Source: Gossypium raimondii
Lineage: Eukaryota; Streptophyta; Magnoliopsida; Malvales; Malvaceae
Direction of reading: 5' to 3'
DNA length: 64,000 bases
Assembly: GCF_025698545.1 (NCBI RefSeq)
Contig: NC_068576.1
Coordinates: 55,278,094-55,342,093 of the forward strand
Shown here piece by piece: positions 33,360 through 43,211 of the stretch (positions are counted from its first letter, which is position 1; each line of letters begins with the position of its first letter). The position numbers were made by a program, and so were the translations under genes. The notes under the pieces were generated by a model. That model saw only the letters and a list, made by a program, of their open reading frames with translations, made no database searches and had not been told where the DNA came from.

Positions 33360-36009
33360 TTACCTTCTAAAACGTATCATTCCGTCACAAGCCAATGTCC
33401 CTTCAAGATCTCCGATGATTCGAGCTATACGAACCTCGAGACCTCTTTGAACTTCCTGAAACAAAGATCTTACATTATCGGAGACCCGTTTCATGTCAAT
33501 GGTATGTACCTTATCTAGCTCCACCCCGAGGAACCCAGAGACTATTTTGGGTTGAATTTCCATTAACTTTTGGCCTGTTGCAACCATGTATCTCTGCAGT
33601 TGGAATGTCTCCTCAAGGTAATGTTCTAGTTTTCTAGTATCTCCTTTGCTTTTTTTAGTAGTACTACAATCTCCTTGGTTCATGTCTATGTCATTGTCGT
33701 GCTGAAAATTGAAATCGATAAAAATGATAAGAAAACAGGAATTACCATTGTATTGGCTATAAGCAGAAAAGTATAAGCTTGCTTACCATCCGTTTACAGA
33801 GATCGTCGGTCTTCCCTTGAAGGGACTGATAGCGGCTGACTTGTTTGTTTAGCAAAGATAGAGACAGTAGAAAGCCTTTCATCCCGTTGTCGCTGCTTCC
33901 TTCCGTGTCCTCTCCAGTTTCTTGCTTTCCGGTTAACCTCTCGAGCAAGAGAAGTTGTTGCTTCAGCCTTTTGATCTTGTAGGAAACTCCAAGAGCTTGA
34001 AGATCCATCCTCCATAGGGTACTTTTGGTTTTACTCAATGACTGCCTAGGTAATTCAACTGAACCGGCTAGTGCCGAACTATTCGTTTCTTTCTCGACTG
34101 GATCTGGTTTGGGATTTTCTTTCTGTTCTTCGAATTCCTTTTCGGGTACTTGGACTATCAATCTGATGTTTTTGGTCTCCTTGTTTGATGGGATTTCTTG
34201 AGACTCATCAAGCAATGTTGTGTTTGTTTCTTGCTCCTTGTCCGTTGATTTTTTCTTTATAATCTTCACATTGGGCCAAACTGTATCATGTGTTAATAAT
34301 GCTGGATCATGCAGAGTTAAGTTTATTAGGTTGTTCTTGTGACAACTCAAAGGCTGTTCCTTCAAGGAATCCAATTCTTCTTCTTTTTCCAGTAGCAAGG
34401 CTTCTAATTTCATATTGTCCTGTCTGAGCTGTGACATGTCCTGGTTCAATCCTTCGGCATGGGACTGCAGCCGCTTCGATTCTAGTTCCATGCTCAGTAG
34501 CCGCCAACGAAAAGCCTCTAACTTCTCATCTTTCAGTCTCATTTGTTCTGCAAAGGCATCCAGTTCCAAATGATGCCTCTTCTCAATGACAGCTGCATAC
34601 TTTTCCGCTTCGGTTTGAACCCAATGTTCCAACCTTTTGACATCAGTTGTCATCACTGCTTCAATGCAAGAACAGAAAAACAAAAAAGGGGAAAAAAAAC
34701 ACAGAACAAACAAAGAAAATTATTTTAAGTTCATGACAAGTTAAGCATTTGACTGGATCTTGTTCTTACCCCAATCCTCACTCATTTCTGGGGAGTTACA
34801 ATCTGTAAGAGGAGAACAGATCGCTGGGTCTGTTTTTAACTCTGAAAGGTCATATTCGAAACCGGCATCAGTCGGCAGTGATCTGGTTTTGGCAGAGTTA
34901 GAAACCTCTTTGGCACCAAAGGAAGCATCTAATTTTGCACTGGCTTGGTTAGCAAACATGGCCTTCAATGAATGTCTCTCATGTTTAGACTCAGATACTG
35001 CCCTCCACCTTTCTGTTTCTAGTTCAGCTTGTTTCTTCTTTGTCTTTGATACTTTAACCTCCTTCAAAAGCAATTGCTTCTCTGCAGTATCCAACTTAGT
35101 TTTCCTCAGCATTGCAGACAAGACCTTATCTTTCTGTTCCAAGTCCTTCCGCATTTTCGCGATTTCCATGGACAAATTTTGAGCCAACAAAACTGATTCC
35201 TCTTTTTGCTCTAGGACTGCATCAAGCTCCAGCTTTGTAGCTTCAACTTCTCTAAAGGCTCGGCCCATCTCTGCTTCAAGTCGCCGTTGGTTTGAAACGA
35301 TCTCGATAAAGGCAGTTTTGTGCTTCCAAAGCTCATTAGAATGCTCTTGAGCTTCCCATTTTGCAGCTTCCTTCAACTCTTCCGCAATACTTTCAAATTC
35401 CATTACCTTTTCTTCTAATTCCTTCCCCTTTTGCTCCATTTCTTCAATTACCTTATCCTTAGACTCCACCACCATCTCCATTTCATTCAACTTTTTGTTC
35501 AAGTCATCGATGTCTTGGTCTTTCTTTTTCTGAAGGACTCTTAATTCATTTAAAAGAGCTCCGATTTGCTGCCTAAGTGACTTTCTTTCCATTAACCATC
35601 CTTGCTCTTGAGATGCAAAGATGCTCACAACCTTCTCATTTGCCTTTGCATCTTCATGTCTCCTTTTCTTTAACTCCTTGATCTCTATCTTAGCAATCTC
35701 GAGCTTTCGGAGAAGCTCGCACTGTGCTTCATTGGCTTCTTCTCTCTGGATTCTCCATATAAGCAATCCCAAGAGTTGAGCACTTCCATGAAGCATTTTA
35801 TCTCGGGATTCAGACCATTTCTCGTCTTCCTTTTCGGGTCCTGCAAGGAGTCTGAGAGCAAAAAAGGCACAAGAAACACCAAAATACATTGGGTACAAGC
35901 TATCCCTTTTGTCTTCGGAGAAAATTGGATATGAACCAGAGATTCCCTTCTCATCCATAGCTGAGGAACTTGTTTCTTTCTTTACCTCTGGAACTGAAAT
36001 TCCAGGCAT
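33360..36009 (-). CDS. Plant-specific long coiled-coil protein (817 aa, three coding exons)
   Basis: Exons are 36009-34770, 34658-33787 and 33701-33360; the total is 2,454 nt in frame. The N-terminus (MPGISVPEVKKE) is followed near residues 36-56 by a hydrophobic stretch, YPMYFGVSCAFFALRLLAG, which may be a membrane anchor or a buried helix. Residues ~85-350 are a heptad-rich coiled coil (Lys/Glu/Leu-rich). After a Ser/Thr-rich linker comes a second coiled coil (WVQTEAEKYAAVIEKRHHLE), a charged disordered region, and a conserved C-terminal helix domain (FQLQRYMVATGQKLMEIQPK) ending IRFRR. I do not recognise a named gene; similar plant proteins carry vague 'USO1-like' or 'myosin heavy chain-like' labels. 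It probably has a scaffold role. The last codons (AGAAG|GTAATA) resemble a splice donor, so a further exon is possible. Confidence 0.85.
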
Positions 36010-36012
36010 TCA

Positions 36013-37367
36013 CTGTTTTGATTCAGACCCATAAAAGAAAACATATGATATATTCATGGCAATATAGTCACTCAAAAAGGACAAATAATTGAGCACAAAA
36101 AGGCATAACAATAATTGAGGAACAATAATATCCTAAACAGTAAGCAGCACAAGGACACCTTATAAAAACAGGACAATCCATGACAAGAATAATGTAAAAC
36201 TTACAAGAACAAAAGGTTGAAAGATGTCTTCAATTCAAAACTAGACAAAATGCTAGAAAGTAGAGCCCCCAATGCTGGTTTTCCATGGAAATCATGTAAG
36301 GGCTAGCCAAAGAAAAAAAAACCCAAAGTCGCAATTTATCCTTTTTATAAAATGATCAGGGAATACCAAAAGCATGAGCTTTTACATGTGAAAAACTCTG
36401 CGAAATCTGTTAAACAAAAGGGCAAACCTTTTACAGAATGGAAGGGCTTGTTCCCTGGTTTTCAGTGACCTGATAACCCCACATGCTATCCCATCAACTT
36501 TTTTTCAATAATTCTTCTGATGGTTTGTCACCAATACTAACAAGGAAAAAAGTTTGAAGACTTTTAAATAAATGTTTCCTTGAACAATGCTGGAAATATT
36601 TTATTGTTTCCAAAGTGTCTTTCAGTTTTAAATGCATGAACTTATTAGTTGAAAATTAAAACTGTAATAATAATCTGGAAAAGGAAAAAATTGAAAATTT
36701 ATTATGAAAGTACTTTTCAGTTAACTTATAAATGTGTAATTTAATTCCATTTATAATGATTTAGGACCATATGGAAATTTATTTTGTAGACTTTAGATTA
36801 CAACTCTTCCCACACCTACAAATCAAGCCAATACCCAAAGATTATATTGAAAATATCAACCACATAAGTATTAAGCTTGGACCACATTATTCACAACTGC
36901 TGTTATTGGAATTGGACTAGATAGATAAGTTGGAATGAGAATCATTGGTTGGAACAAAAAATTTGAATTAATTTATAAGCAAGTTACTCAGAACTGGATA
37001 AAAAACCAGCAGTTAAACCGGTTTATTATTTTTTTAAAATTTTAATTATTATTGAATTGGCGAATAAACCAATTAAACCGAAAAATGACCGGATTGAACC
37101 CAAGTTTAGTTTTTAAAACATTAACTATAACCGTTAGGAAAAAAAAAACTTCACCAATGCATTTATTATTTATCGGATAATCAAAACTCATGAAAAGTTA
37201 AAGTAAAAAAAACAAAACCAATTCTACGTGGTTCAATTGCTTCCCTAAAAACCTAACAAATATCCCAATTCCCAACAATTAATACTCAAATCGAACCCTA
37301 ATGCTTGACAATGTTAATGAAGACTCAATTTACTTAATCAGGATGGCAATTTGATAGAATTTATTAC
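36013..37367 (-). other. Predicted 5' UTR intron of the coiled-coil gene
   Basis: On the minus strand a donor TTCGCAG|GTAATA lies at 37368/37367 and an acceptor AAAACAG|TGAATG at 36013/36012, immediately before the start codon. This would put the first exon and promoter at about 37.37-37.6 kb. It also explains the 1.3 kb of non-coding sequence here. Confidence 0.45.
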
Positions 37368-37639
37368 CTGCGAAAGCTCCTTGGTTGACCAAAAATGGTG
37401 GCGAAGAGCATTATCTGTAAACAAAGAGAGGAAATCTTCAATGGGTCCAGAACTATTAGGGTGTTTCGATTTGCTTCTTTGGTTGAGGAAATGATATGCA
37501 AATCAATGGTATTAAGTCAGTTTTGTTTTGTTTACAAATTGAAAAGAGAAGAGCACTCACAGTTCCATGATTGTAATTTATATATGTATATTCCGAGATC
37601 TGCTCTTGGAATTTGGATTAACCCAGCACTTGATTATAC

Positions 37640-38285
37640 TCAAAGCAATCAATAAAAAATAAATTATTTTAAAAAAATGTGAAGAATATGAGCTAAGGGT
37701 GACCCTACTGTGGATGTTGCATTGAATAATAATTAAAAGGCTTCCATTTCCATCAAAAGATTCTTCCTCTTGCATTTCTTATATGTATTCTTTTGTATAT
37801 TCTTCGATCTAAATGATAATAAAGAAAATGTGAATTGACTTTTAAAATATCCATCAAACATGGCGAAATGTTTTTGAATGATTATAATATTTGGTGGAGT
37901 GACGTGGCATTCCGGTGAAGTCGCGGGGATTCCAGAAAATTTTTTCCATGAAAGGTTTGAGAACAAGGAACACTAGTGCAGAGAAAAATGATGGTAAAAT
38001 TACTCTAAAGCCCTTGTATTAATAGTTGGATTACATTTTATCCATTTACTTAAACAATTAGTTTGATTAATCTTTTTAGGTTAGATCAACTTTGATCCTT
38101 CTCTTAAAAATTTAATTTATTTTTACTATTAAAAGCTACTCCATATACATCATAATAGCCTACATATGACATATGTACACATGGTACATTCAAATCAAAA
38201 TCATCACAAATTGTTCAATTCAAGATTTATAACTTTGTCTCAGAAGATGAATTGGTGAAATTTCTAGGTTTTTGGATAGAGATCC
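37640..38285. promoter_or_regulatory. Shared divergent promoter region (coiled-coil gene and TAP46)
   Basis: If the 5' UTR exon of the minus-strand coiled-coil gene ends near 37.6 kb, only about 0.65 kb separates it from the TAP46 start codon. The interval includes an ACGT-core site GTGACGTGGCATT (about 37899-37911). No coding sequence is seen. Confidence 0.35.
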
Positions 38286-41200
38286 ATGTGTGAGAGCAAA
38301 ATGGATGACGTGCCATTGCCTTCTCTCTTCGAACAAGCTAGTAAGATCCATCGGACGGCCACGGAGTCCGGTGCTGATCAGGTATGATCCCTTCTCATGC
38401 TTGATTCGATGTCCCTTTACTACTTTCTTATCTGATAAAATTTGCACTCCGTGGATTCATAGGATCTGGTAAAGAAAGGATGCGAGGCACTGGGTAAGTG
38501 CGAGGACATGATAAGCAAGCTAGGACTTTTTTCATCAAATGAGACCAAAGATGACATTAGCACCACCAATCTCAAGTATATTCTGGTCATCTTCAATATT
38601 ATAATTCCCTTTCCTTTTTTGATAAACCAGTTGTCCGTAGTATCTACATTAAGTTTCAAAAAGGAAAAAGCTCCATTTGAAATTTGGATTTCTAATTATT
38701 TCATAATGTTTCTGGAATTACTTATTTTTGTATTATGCTGTAATTATGTCATAGCGTCAAGGTTTTAACGTTTTTTTTTTTCATTTCAGGTGCCATTTTA
38801 TCTTGCAGAGCTGACTGAAAAGATTGTGCAGGACAATAGGATACAGATTCTCAAAACTTCACAGGCAAAATTGAAAGTAAGTTTAGTTCACAACATGAAG
38901 TGTAGTTGAAAGATTAGTCATAATACTGAATAGTGTTGCTTGGTAGCTGTTTACCTTTTAATCTGTTTCAACTTGTAGTCTATAGTCCATCTAGTATGTA
39001 AATTGGAACTTATAGAAAGTGTGGTGTCTTCTAGGAGTTCATGTCTTTTTGCGAGGCAATGAAGCTTGAACCACAGGAAGAGTTGGAAGTCGCTGTACAA
39101 GGAGCATCAAATTCTTTTGCTGACCGAAGGGCCTTAAAGGTAGTTATATATACTCCTGCTAACAGCATGATTTGTATTTTTTGGGGGAGGAATACATAGA
39201 TTTGAATGGAAATTCTGTTGTGGTGTACGTGCTTTTTTGTGCCTGCAATCAGATTGCTCGGTTCAAACGCCAAAGAGCAGCAGAAGCAAAGCTGACAGAA
39301 ATAAAGGAACGGAAGGAACGACGCGAGCGTTCAACAAAAGCTGCTGCCATATCCACTCCTGTTGAGCATGGAGAGGAGGATGTGCTGGATGACGACGGGG
39401 AGGAAGAATGAGAGGTTAGTTCTATTCGTACAATGGTTTTTAAACTCTTCTCTTGATGTGACATTACTGTTAAGACTTTCCTGTTTATGTTGTTATCATC
39501 TGAAAATCTGCAAAATCATGGAACTTATAGAAGCTATTGCATGAAATGTTGCACAAGAACCTCTAGCAACTCTTTTATATCAACTATATCATAAAACCAG
39601 GATTTAGGGAGGCTTTAGTTAAGGTACTATAAAGATTTCTTTTGAATTTGTTTGTCGTTTGAATTACTTTTTGTGCTTCTGCTCGTGAAACCAGAGAACA
39701 GGGATAGTTTAGTTAGGGCTACTACAGAATAAGATCCCCCCTGAACTGTTTCTCTGTTTGTTTCTTATTCTTGTACGATTTTCATAAGCAATTTCTAGCA
39801 AGAATTGTAATTGTATTCTGGTTGACTATGGTGCCTAGCAGTTTGAAATGTCATGTGAGGTAATACATTGCTAAGTTATAATTTGAGGCTTTGTGACTTG
39901 AGTTTTACTTTATATGATGTAAGTGTTAGCATTTTTTTCCTTCCTTTTATCTGATCTACTATTACTAGGACTGAATTGGGAACTATGACTACAATAGATG
40001 GCCCTTCTTATTTCATGAAGTCTCTAGCTGATGCTAAAAATTATTTTGGTTATTTAGTTGTCAGAATAAATCTATTATGCGTTGAAGTTGGAACTGAAAT
40101 ATTATACCTAATGCTTATTGTTGAAAATATTATTTGTGCTTGTTTTGGTTCCACAAAACTTTCTGCTTTCTCTAAAAGAATGATATTCCCCTTGCGCAGG
40201 CTTGGCTTACTACCATCTCATTGGCTATTTGTAAGGTTAGTCTAATATGTCACTACAATCTTCTATGTAAAAACTTTAAAGGTGTTTTCACCATATAGTG
40301 ATATCTTTGTTCCACAAATTGTAGGCTTTTGATCTGCTTGAAATGCTAAAGAAGGAAGAAGAGATGCTTGCTGCCATTAGGGAAAAACACCTAAAGGTAT
40401 TAATCTTCTTAAATTAGCCTCTCCTTTTTTCCTGAAAATTTTTGTTTCTTTACCTTGTTAACATTTTTGTGACGAGTTGTGCTGAAAATTTGACACCACA
40501 AGAAGACTCGAAGCTTTTAAGCTAAGCACTACCTAAGATCGACACCATACTTTCCACTTAGGAGGCGTACGGCATCACTGGAGTTAAACATTTTATTCTG
40601 TTAGGCATTAGAAAGGGAAACATAAATGTACAATGCCGAGGCTGACACTGTTCACCCCACTGAAGAGTTTGGTTACTTGATATTTCTGATAAATAGAAAG
40701 GGAACCATAAATGTGCATTGCCTTCATTCTTGATACTTGCTACAAGTCCAACTGATCATTGATTTTGTAGAAAATTTGAGATTTTGCAATAAATTACTCG
40801 ATCTGCTAAAACATTGTACTGTTATTTAAATGATAAATTACTCGATCTGCTACAATCTTTCATTTATTATCGGACCAACCTTGACTGTTACAATTTCTGA
40901 CTGATAATATAACCAATTTCTTGTGAATTGCTTAGACCAGTGATGTTGGCCTGCTTCAGTCGGTATCCTGTGCTGAAAAAGATTCATAGTTTTTCTTTTC
41001 AGGGTTTTAGAAAAGTAATTGTTTGAAGCAATCATCATATTCATTTCTTACTTTTTTTGCTCCAATTTTGAAAGTTAAAGCCTAATGAACTACTTTCTAA
41101 TGTGAATATGCATTGGTACATTTATATTTTTCCTTGTATACCAGGAAGGGGAAAAGGAGTTTTCTCAGGCTATCCTAGATGATCGCACCAAGAAAGCTGA

Positions 41201-41848
41201 GGCATGGCATCGTGATGCTGCAACTCGGGCTCGATATACTAAACCTGCACCACCTATCACGTGTGCTACATTTGCTCAAGATGTTATAGAAGGAAGGGCA
41301 AATGTTTCACAGGCACATGACCACAAACACCAGCCAATGATCTTTGGACCAAAAAGCCTTACAGGTGGAAGCTTGACAAGTGAGAGGGAAAGGATGGCAG
41401 CCCAAGCTTTCCAACCTTTTCATAGGTAAATCCCTGTCCTGTAACACAACTTTTATGTATATTCTGTATATTCTGTTCTGTTCTCTGGGATGATGCAGAG
41501 CTTTGAGCATCAAATTCTCTTGTTAAACACCTTGCACCATATCATGCCAAATTAACATGTGATGTTGAGCAGATACTGATTGCGGTCATACATAACAAAT
41601 TATCCTGTAGGATGCCAACGATAAGCATCGAGGAAGCTGGTCTGAAAGAGATGGAAATGATGAACAAATGGAAGGAGAGGAATGCAAAAATGTTCGAAGA
41701 AGCTAACTCGGCATGGTATAAGGACCGCCCGAAGTTGAGACCGAGTGAAGATGATGATGATGCACAAGAGAAGGCGAGGGCATGGGATGACTGGAAAGAT
41801 GATAATCCTCGAGGTGCTGGCAATAAAAAGCTCACACCCTGCGGGTGA
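38286..41848 (+). CDS. TAP46: TAP46 (alpha4-type PP2A/PP4/PP6 regulatory subunit), interrupted by an in-frame stop
   Basis: Exons are 38286-38381, 38463-38585, 38790-38876, 39035-39139, 39253-39414, 40200-40235, 40325-40396, 41145-41425 and 41611-41848. They give 1,200 nt (400 codons) in one frame, but codon 190 is TGA (39409-39411). The start MCESKMDDVPLPSLFEQASK aligns with other plant TAP46 proteins. Recognisable blocks include LGLFSSNETKDDISTTNLKY, ALKIARFKRQRAAEAKL, FDLLEMLKKEEEML and the C-terminal hallmark KARAWDDWKDDNPRG followed by AGNKKLTPCG. TAP46 binds catalytic subunits of PP2A-like phosphatases through its helical N-terminal domain and is a TOR target in plants. The stop falls in the conserved GEEE-x-EAW segment, where x is Arg in plant homologues. 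All splice sites and the downstream frame are intact, so the break looks recent or is a sequence error. Confidence 0.9.
39409..39411 (+). other. TAP46: Premature TGA stop in TAP46 exon 5
   Basis: Reading exon 5 from 39253 gives GGG GAG GAA GAA TGA GAG before the donor GTTAGT. Plant homologues have Arg here, so a single CGA-to-TGA transition explains it. It lies 3 bases before the exon end and more than 50 bases upstream of later exon junctions, so nonsense-mediated decay would be expected. Confidence 0.9.
40611..40850 (+). repeat. Local duplications in TAP46 intron 7
   Basis: AGAAAGGGAAACATAAATGT (about 40610) recurs as AGAAAGGGAACCATAAATGT (about 40693). Also, AAATTACTCGATCTGCTA occurs at about 40791 and again at about 40834. 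These are two short direct duplications inside one intron. Confidence 0.6.
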
Positions 41849-43211
41849 AAGCTGACAAGTAAGTTCTTATACTTTTCTTATAACGTATTCTTTCAGACCT
41901 AATTAATGGTGGTTTTAGGAACATTCTCCGAAATCTATATTTATTATAGATTTTCACTTAACGAAATTTTAGCAGTTTGCTTTGAGTAATGTATAAAATT
42001 CACACGTTAATTAGAACAAAATTGATCCTTGCACAAGTCTACGTGATTCGAATTTTGTGTAACATTATTTATATTTGTATATTTTAACTAAGCCTATTTT
42101 AGACTTATCTATATTGAATCTTTATTACATTTTGCAAAAATTATGCCACTCCTAATAATATTAGATATTATCATAGATCTGACTTTTATGATAGAAATTA
42201 TATAATATATAAAATTAATATAAATAAAATATTACATAATTAAAAAATAGGTCAGATTAACTTGGGCTTAAGCTTGACTCGCATTTTAAATGGGCTTAAT
42301 TTTTAGTTCAAGATTATGTTTTGGGTTTAATATTTTTATCCAAACCCTTTCAAATATCGATTCTGATTTTGGATTTGGGCGAGTGATTGCAACAATACGA
42401 ATTATTAAATGTGCTAAATTTTTTGTTTAAGATTTAAAGAAAATATTTAATACACTAATAGTAGAATTTAAAATTTTCACAAATAGAGTTGGATTGTTGA
42501 TAGTGTATATAGAGTATGGTAAAAAATATTTAAAAATAAATCTATAATTGAAATGAAACATATGATAAATTTATAATTTTGCTTGTGGAGTCAAAAGAGT
42601 GTATTATAAGAATATCAAATATTTGCCTTAAGATTTAAGTGTTGGTATTGTTGTCTAAAAGTGCTCTAAAAAATAAAATATCTATTTTAAACATATGTTT
42701 TAAAGTAAAAAAAAAGTATTTAAATGATGTTCAAATTCATCAATACAATAATATTTTAATAAAAATATAAAAAATAACTTATTATTAATTATTATTAATA
42801 TTTGATATATATTGCATAAACAATTAATGTCAATTATTTGTAAATTTTAATTTAAATACATAAATAATGGTGTATACCATATAAATATTATACAAAATAC
42901 ATTTGATTTTAAAAGTGTTTTTAATTAAAAGTTAAATTTCAGCTTTAGAAACCATAATATTTTAATTTAATTTAATTTAATTTAATTTTATATAAAATAT
43001 AAAAAACACCATCATAATAATATTTATTATTTTAAAACGAAAATTTTAATAATTTTGAATTAAATATATAAATAAAGGTATTATGCGACAATTTAAAAGA
43101 CAAACATTTCAATTATATTAATTAATAATTTATAAACATATTAGAGATAAATAAAGGATAATTTTTGCATATATGCTGGAAAAAAATTTATTTGAGAAAT
43201 TATGCTTTTTT

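Follow-up and report, generated by a model that had tools for sequence, protein, structure and literature searches.

A probable young null allele of TAP46, an ancient duplicate gene, in Gossypium raimondii

Nonsense-bearing members of ancient duplicate gene pairs are described under the concepts of incipient pseudogenes and late fractionation. The gene considered here belongs to the family of plant TAP46, animal alpha4 (IGBP1) and yeast Tap42, proteins linked to the phosphatase PP2A. The excerpts of one study report that residues 94-202 of alpha4 are important for binding PP2Ac, and that deleting its C-terminal domain (236-339) strongly lowers PP2A binding in a yeast two-hybrid assay (PMC3237570). 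Disruption of plant Tap46 is reported, again in an excerpt, to be embryo-lethal (PMC4321543), and one paper uses Tap46 as an expression marker (PMC6801916).

We analysed a window of 64,000 nucleotides of G. raimondii DNA on a contig that we call C12. An earlier note, made from the sequence of this window, had reported a nonsense codon within a TAP46 gene. Among the papers surveyed, we found no report of a stop codon in TAP46 of cotton.

The TAP46 gene of the window and its internal stop codon

The TAP42/TAP46-family gene lies on the plus strand of the window, from 38286 to 41848, and comprises nine exons (Table 1). Joined, the exons give 1200 nt, or 400 codons. Codon 190, counting from the ATG, is a premature TGA, and no other break of the frame was found; GT-AG dinucleotides are found at all eight introns. 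Exon joining and splice sites thus confirm the earlier claim of a TGA in an otherwise intact nine-exon gene, and the claim that 399 of the 400 codons are fine is correct when the final stop is counted. The single open reading frame expected of a family member after splicing is interrupted in the window copy at codon 190. A frame conserved over 398 sense codons and interrupted only once is more than a chance open reading frame.

The identity of the gene as TAP46, also claimed at the outset, is borne out by the Pfam TAP42 profile (PF04177, cut-off 26 bits), which the window gene matches over its whole length: the half before the TGA scores 148.3 bits over profile positions 1-175 and the half after it 116.1 bits over positions 185-346. 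The first part of the protein, like that of the second copy described below, also matches the solved N-terminal structures of alpha4 and Tap42 (4iyp, 3qc1 and 2v0p). Within this part, exon 5 encodes the basic stretch IARFKRQRAAEAKL, which aligns with KIQRYKQKKELEHRL of alpha4 in 4iyp. Over the acidic linker around codon 190, neither mammalian alpha4 nor yeast Tap42, the relatives found in the PDB, gave an alignment.

Table 1. Features of the TAP46 locus in window coordinates (C4 copy, the second TAP46 copy on contig C4)
Feature	Position	Strand	Remarks
Dispersed repeat, ~190 bp	37984..38177		end lies some 110 bp upstream of the TAP46 start codon
TAP46 exon 1	38286..38381	+	96 nt; ATG at 38286, start aligned with the ATG of the C4 copy
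TAP46 exon 2	38463..38585	+	123 nt; donor CTG/GTCATC (exon/intron), the weakest of the gene
TAP46 exon 3	38790..38876	+	87 nt
TAP46 exon 4	39035..39139	+	105 nt
TAP46 exon 5	39253..39414	+	162 nt; contains the TGA; skipping preserves the frame
Premature stop TGA	39409..39411	+	codon 190; CGA (Arg) in the C4 copy
TAP46 exon 6	40200..40235	+	36 nt
TAP46 exon 7	40325..40396	+	72 nt
TAP46 exon 8	41145..41425	+	281 nt
TAP46 exon 9	41611..41848	+	238 nt; includes the normal stop

The intact second copy and the origin of the pair

A search of the genome for a second TAP46 copy, proposed in the earlier note as a check, led to an intact locus. The species' own assembly comprises 751 Mb in 281 contigs, at least thirteen of them large: C1 to C13 each bear matches more than 24 Mb from their start, with lengths of 50.6 Mb for C4 and 57.7 Mb for C12, and this size and number of contigs agree with a diploid D-genome cotton. 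There, the PF04177 profile gave four exon matches at two places (11 of 11 candidates scored); it matched two of the nine exons of each copy, and fragments without those exons might escape it. Exon 5 used as a DNA query was also found at two places (2 of 2 candidates scored). The sole additional TAP42-family locus found lies on the minus strand of contig C4, at 50441691-50445440, and neither the profile search nor the exon 5 search found a third copy or an alternative-haplotype contig bearing the other base.

The C4 copy has the same nine exons and an intact frame of 402 codons (402 aa) before its stop, and the two copies differ in length by only three codons, in an acidic stretch. It reads CGA (Arg) at the position of the TGA, within the same GEEE-R-EAW segment, and the genome thus contains, at another place, an intact relative of the copy with the disabling lesion. 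The earlier statement that plant homologues have Arg at codon 190 holds for this paralogue, the only plant sequence compared.

Because loss of Tap46 is reported to be embryo-lethal (PMC4321543), loss of the C12 gene needs cover, and a tolerated loss points to the C4 copy. We infer that the intact copy supplies TAP46 and would in this way make the loss tolerable. The earlier idea that a duplicate covers for the gene is accordingly well placed; its addition, that this would be as in a polyploid, fits an ancient event only. A recent polyploid homoeologue was ruled out, with only one other locus found and a dS of 0.54.

This divergence was obtained by a Nei-Gojobori count over 398 codons with bootstrap intervals, which gave a dS of 0.537 (0.415-0.692) and a dN of 0.061 between the copies. 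An excerpted study of Malvadendrina genomes reports syntenic Ks peaks of 0.2-0.5 and places a decaploidy common to Malvatheca at 61-57 Mya (PMC12343791). Our dS of 0.54 (0.42-0.69) overlaps these peaks at their upper edge, the counting methods being different, and is the one line of evidence that suggests an origin of the pair by whole-genome duplication.

The surroundings of the two copies were also compared. A blastn comparison of the window to the 210 kb surrounding the C4 copy returned, apart from the TAP46 gene, short and scattered matches of repeat-like appearance, and none of nine open frames from about five window genes (named by eye) had a match in these 210 kb at E 1e-3. The neighbouring coiled-coil-like gene (named by eye; window 34741-36009, minus strand) has its closest relative on contig C2 (80% identity), not on C4. 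A KH-like neighbour has no close relative in the genome, the best other match reaching 41%. On the C4 side, a kinase-like gene lies 40 kb from the TAP46 copy; 64 of 1655 candidates were scored for it, and none of the 21 relatives listed at E 1e-60 is on C12. In the stretches compared, no neighbours common to the two loci were thus found, which is not strange given five ancient subgenomes and heavy gene loss.

Elsewhere in the genome, terpene synthase matches are densely clustered at 54.0-54.3 Mb of contig C5 and at 5.9-6.2 Mb of contig C11. Several of them contain an internal stop, some perhaps through read-through into an intron. The C5 piece that we tested is identical in 120 of 130 aligned residues to (+)-delta-cadinene synthase (3g4d, a Gossypium arboreum enzyme), which scored 251 bits compared to 142 for the next protein.

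Constraint, age and nature of the lesion

The pair is ancient and has been retained by selection, and the region past the TGA is constrained no less than the region before it. The dN/dS ratio between the copies is 0.113 (0.075-0.164) overall, 0.139 (0.080-0.230) before the TGA and 0.087 (0.042-0.158) beyond it, far from the value of 1 towards which relaxed constraint would lead. Given this unrelaxed constraint, the window copy would be an incipient pseudogene at most.

Had the gene died long ago, one would expect a higher ratio, frameshifts or damaged splice sites. The window copy shows none of these, and consequently the TGA is either young compared to the duplication or erroneous. With the background ratio set between 0 and 0.08 in a rough model, the 97.5% upper limits on unconstrained evolution of the downstream half are 0.034-0.066 dS units (point estimates 0.004 to 0.042), which corresponds to 14-27% of one lineage's time since duplication. 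This limit is loose: taken over 60 million years, it leaves room for about 8-16 million years, and "young" is to be understood as relative. From the earlier description of the gene as a very young pseudogene we therefore keep youth relative to the duplication, in line with the absence of downstream relaxation, and replace the remainder by an incipient state at most.

The change itself is simple. In the intact C4 copy, a stop can be reached by 169 different single-base changes, of which 35 are transitions, and four codons are CGA; the TGA observed in the window matches the outcome of a CpG transition in one of the four. Since the C4 copy reads CGA, the single CGA-to-TGA transition suggested earlier stands as the simplest account, and C-to-T decay at the CpG would be its mechanism. 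An excess of CpG decay in the window copy, as a sign of methylation, was not seen: seven CG sites of the C4 copy are TG or CA here, nine show the reverse and 20 are shared.

Taken together, we consider it likely that the C12 TAP46 gene is an ancient duplicate with a young single-base nonsense mutation, that is, a null allele or incipient pseudogene that may be fixed or polymorphic.

If the TGA were instead an error of sequencing or assembly, an artefact confined to the plant that was sequenced, or a somatic or minor allele, the C12 gene would work normally. There is just one lesion, every splice dinucleotide is intact and downstream constraint is undiminished; an error would likewise come with hardly any other decay. 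Nevertheless, the TGA arises from a CpG transition outside any homopolymer, and CpG transitions are a common type of real mutation rather than a typical long-read error. The type and place of the change thus favour a real mutation. The other long frames of the window show no obvious break by eye, a weak argument as it was made without gene models or relatives. Stop-codon differences between D-genome cottons are also frequent: for two other D-genome cottons, one study reports stop-codon mutations, with gain and loss not separated, between the members of 641 syntenic gene pairs (2.01%), and large-effect mutations in 2915 syntenic genes (9.14%) (PMC8176745). With about 2% of syntenic pairs so affected, the C12 TGA would be ordinary in kind. 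We accordingly regard an error as unlikely though still worth reckoning with; the weights given here to a real null allele and to an error are judgements and were not computed.

The region upstream of the gene and its splice donors bear on a further reading, in which the duplicate was silenced earlier and the TGA is a late passenger. A dispersed repeat (Table 1) lies about 110-300 bp upstream of the ATG. It has at least 41 other matches at 70-79% identity (40 of 251 candidates scored) and no counterpart was found in the C4 upstream sequence used for comparison, where the two copies align well only over the last ~35 bp before the ATG. The intron 2 donor (window 38586-38591) is weaker in the C12 copy, GTCATC scoring 3.4 bits compared to 6.9 for GTAATC in the C4 copy (all donor scores come from an approximate matrix), and a GT 10 nt upstream of this donor scores higher and would shift the frame. 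The PF04177 scores of the C12 copy are also below those of the C4 copy, both before the TGA (148.3 vs 152.7 bits) and after it (116.1 vs 127.4 bits). However, differences between the copies are assignable to one of them only with an outgroup, and the other donors are equal or stronger in the C12 copy, with summed donor scores of 63.7 bits compared to 59.3. The repeat, at 70-79% similarity to its relatives, may be old, and this similarity dates the family rather than the insertion. With a dN/dS of 0.11 and no frameshift, we give practically no credence to an earlier silencing.

Fate of the message and comparison with known systems

If the TGA is real, translation of the spliced message would end after 189 codons. 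The next exon junctions follow the TGA at distances of 3, 39, 111 and 392 nt. An intron located 50-55 nt or more past a stop is reported to promote decay, in plants as well (PMC5040709, in excerpt), a distance reached by the junctions at 111 and 392 nt and missed by those at 3 and 39 nt. Nonsense-mediated decay is thus expected, and the message would be degraded. A protein made despite this decay would retain the part resembling the N-terminal domain of alpha4 and Tap42 and lose the conserved C-terminal half.

Such an escaping protein of 189 residues could be imagined as a phosphatase inhibitor or decoy under selection, and the earlier note had raised a dominant-negative-like fragment should the message escape decay. 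These 189 residues do span the match to the alpha4 N-terminal structures, and the importance reported for alpha4 residues 94-202 speaks for some binding. On the other hand, the strong drop in binding reported upon deletion of residues 236-339 speaks against it, and so does the predicted decay of the message. The region after the TGA is at least as constrained as the region before it, which argues against a long-lived truncated form. The idea is therefore weakened, both by the two distant junctions that favour decay and by the absence of any sign of selection for the truncated form, and we regard a selected function of this kind as highly improbable.

The stop could also be bypassed by skipping of exon 5 or by a cryptic exon 5 donor, giving a shortened TAP46 with its normal end. 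Exons 1-7 are each a multiple of three, skipping of exon 5 (162 nt) yields a frame of 345 residues with a single terminal stop, and in-frame GTs are present upstream of the TGA at 39361 and 39382. The normal exon 5 donor is nevertheless strong (9.4 bits, equal in the C4 copy), whereas the in-frame cryptic donors score -2.4 and -0.1. Skipping would also drop 54 residues, including the basic stretch IARFKRQRAAEAKL within the 94-202 stretch reported to matter for PP2Ac binding (PMC3237570), and the product without exon 5 would probably bind PP2Ac poorly. A bypass by splicing is in our view very unlikely.

Read-through of the stop codon was rejected, as the context GAA TGA GAG is without the TGA-CTAG motif, a known read-through motif. 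Downstream reinitiation is possible at codon 210, the first in-frame Met past the TGA, and would give a C-terminal piece only. No structured RNA was matched in Rfam at the gathering score in window 36000-43000.

A real null allele would offer a clean natural case of the late loss of a long-retained copy of an essential TOR-pathway gene, and a test of why some ancient duplicates that were selected for tens of millions of years become dispensable. Both copies may have been strongly selected for some 60 million years, with the C12 copy now being lost in this cotton lineage and, as a result, a recent change in the dosage or division of labour of the TOR-PP2A pathway; we offer this only tentatively, as a possibility on the doubtful side. 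If it is true, compensating expression is expected from the intact C4 copy. Annotation of the locus also calls for caution, as a gene caller could split or mis-splice the window TAP46. Apart from this, isolated stop codons in duplicated genes are commonplace, and the modest interest of this one lies in a loss that, if real, followed long joint retention.

With plant TAP46, animal alpha4 (IGBP1) and yeast Tap42, the window gene shares the PF04177 match in both halves and the match to the N-terminal structures; it differs from them in that the normally spliced copy cannot encode the full protein. With nonsense-bearing members of ancient duplicate pairs, the C12 and C4 genes have in common that one copy is intact while the other carries a stop, that they diverged long ago and that the pair was long under purifying selection. 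What sets them apart is that the C12 copy has a single lesion, and its loss, if real, would have come late, after long joint retention of both copies.
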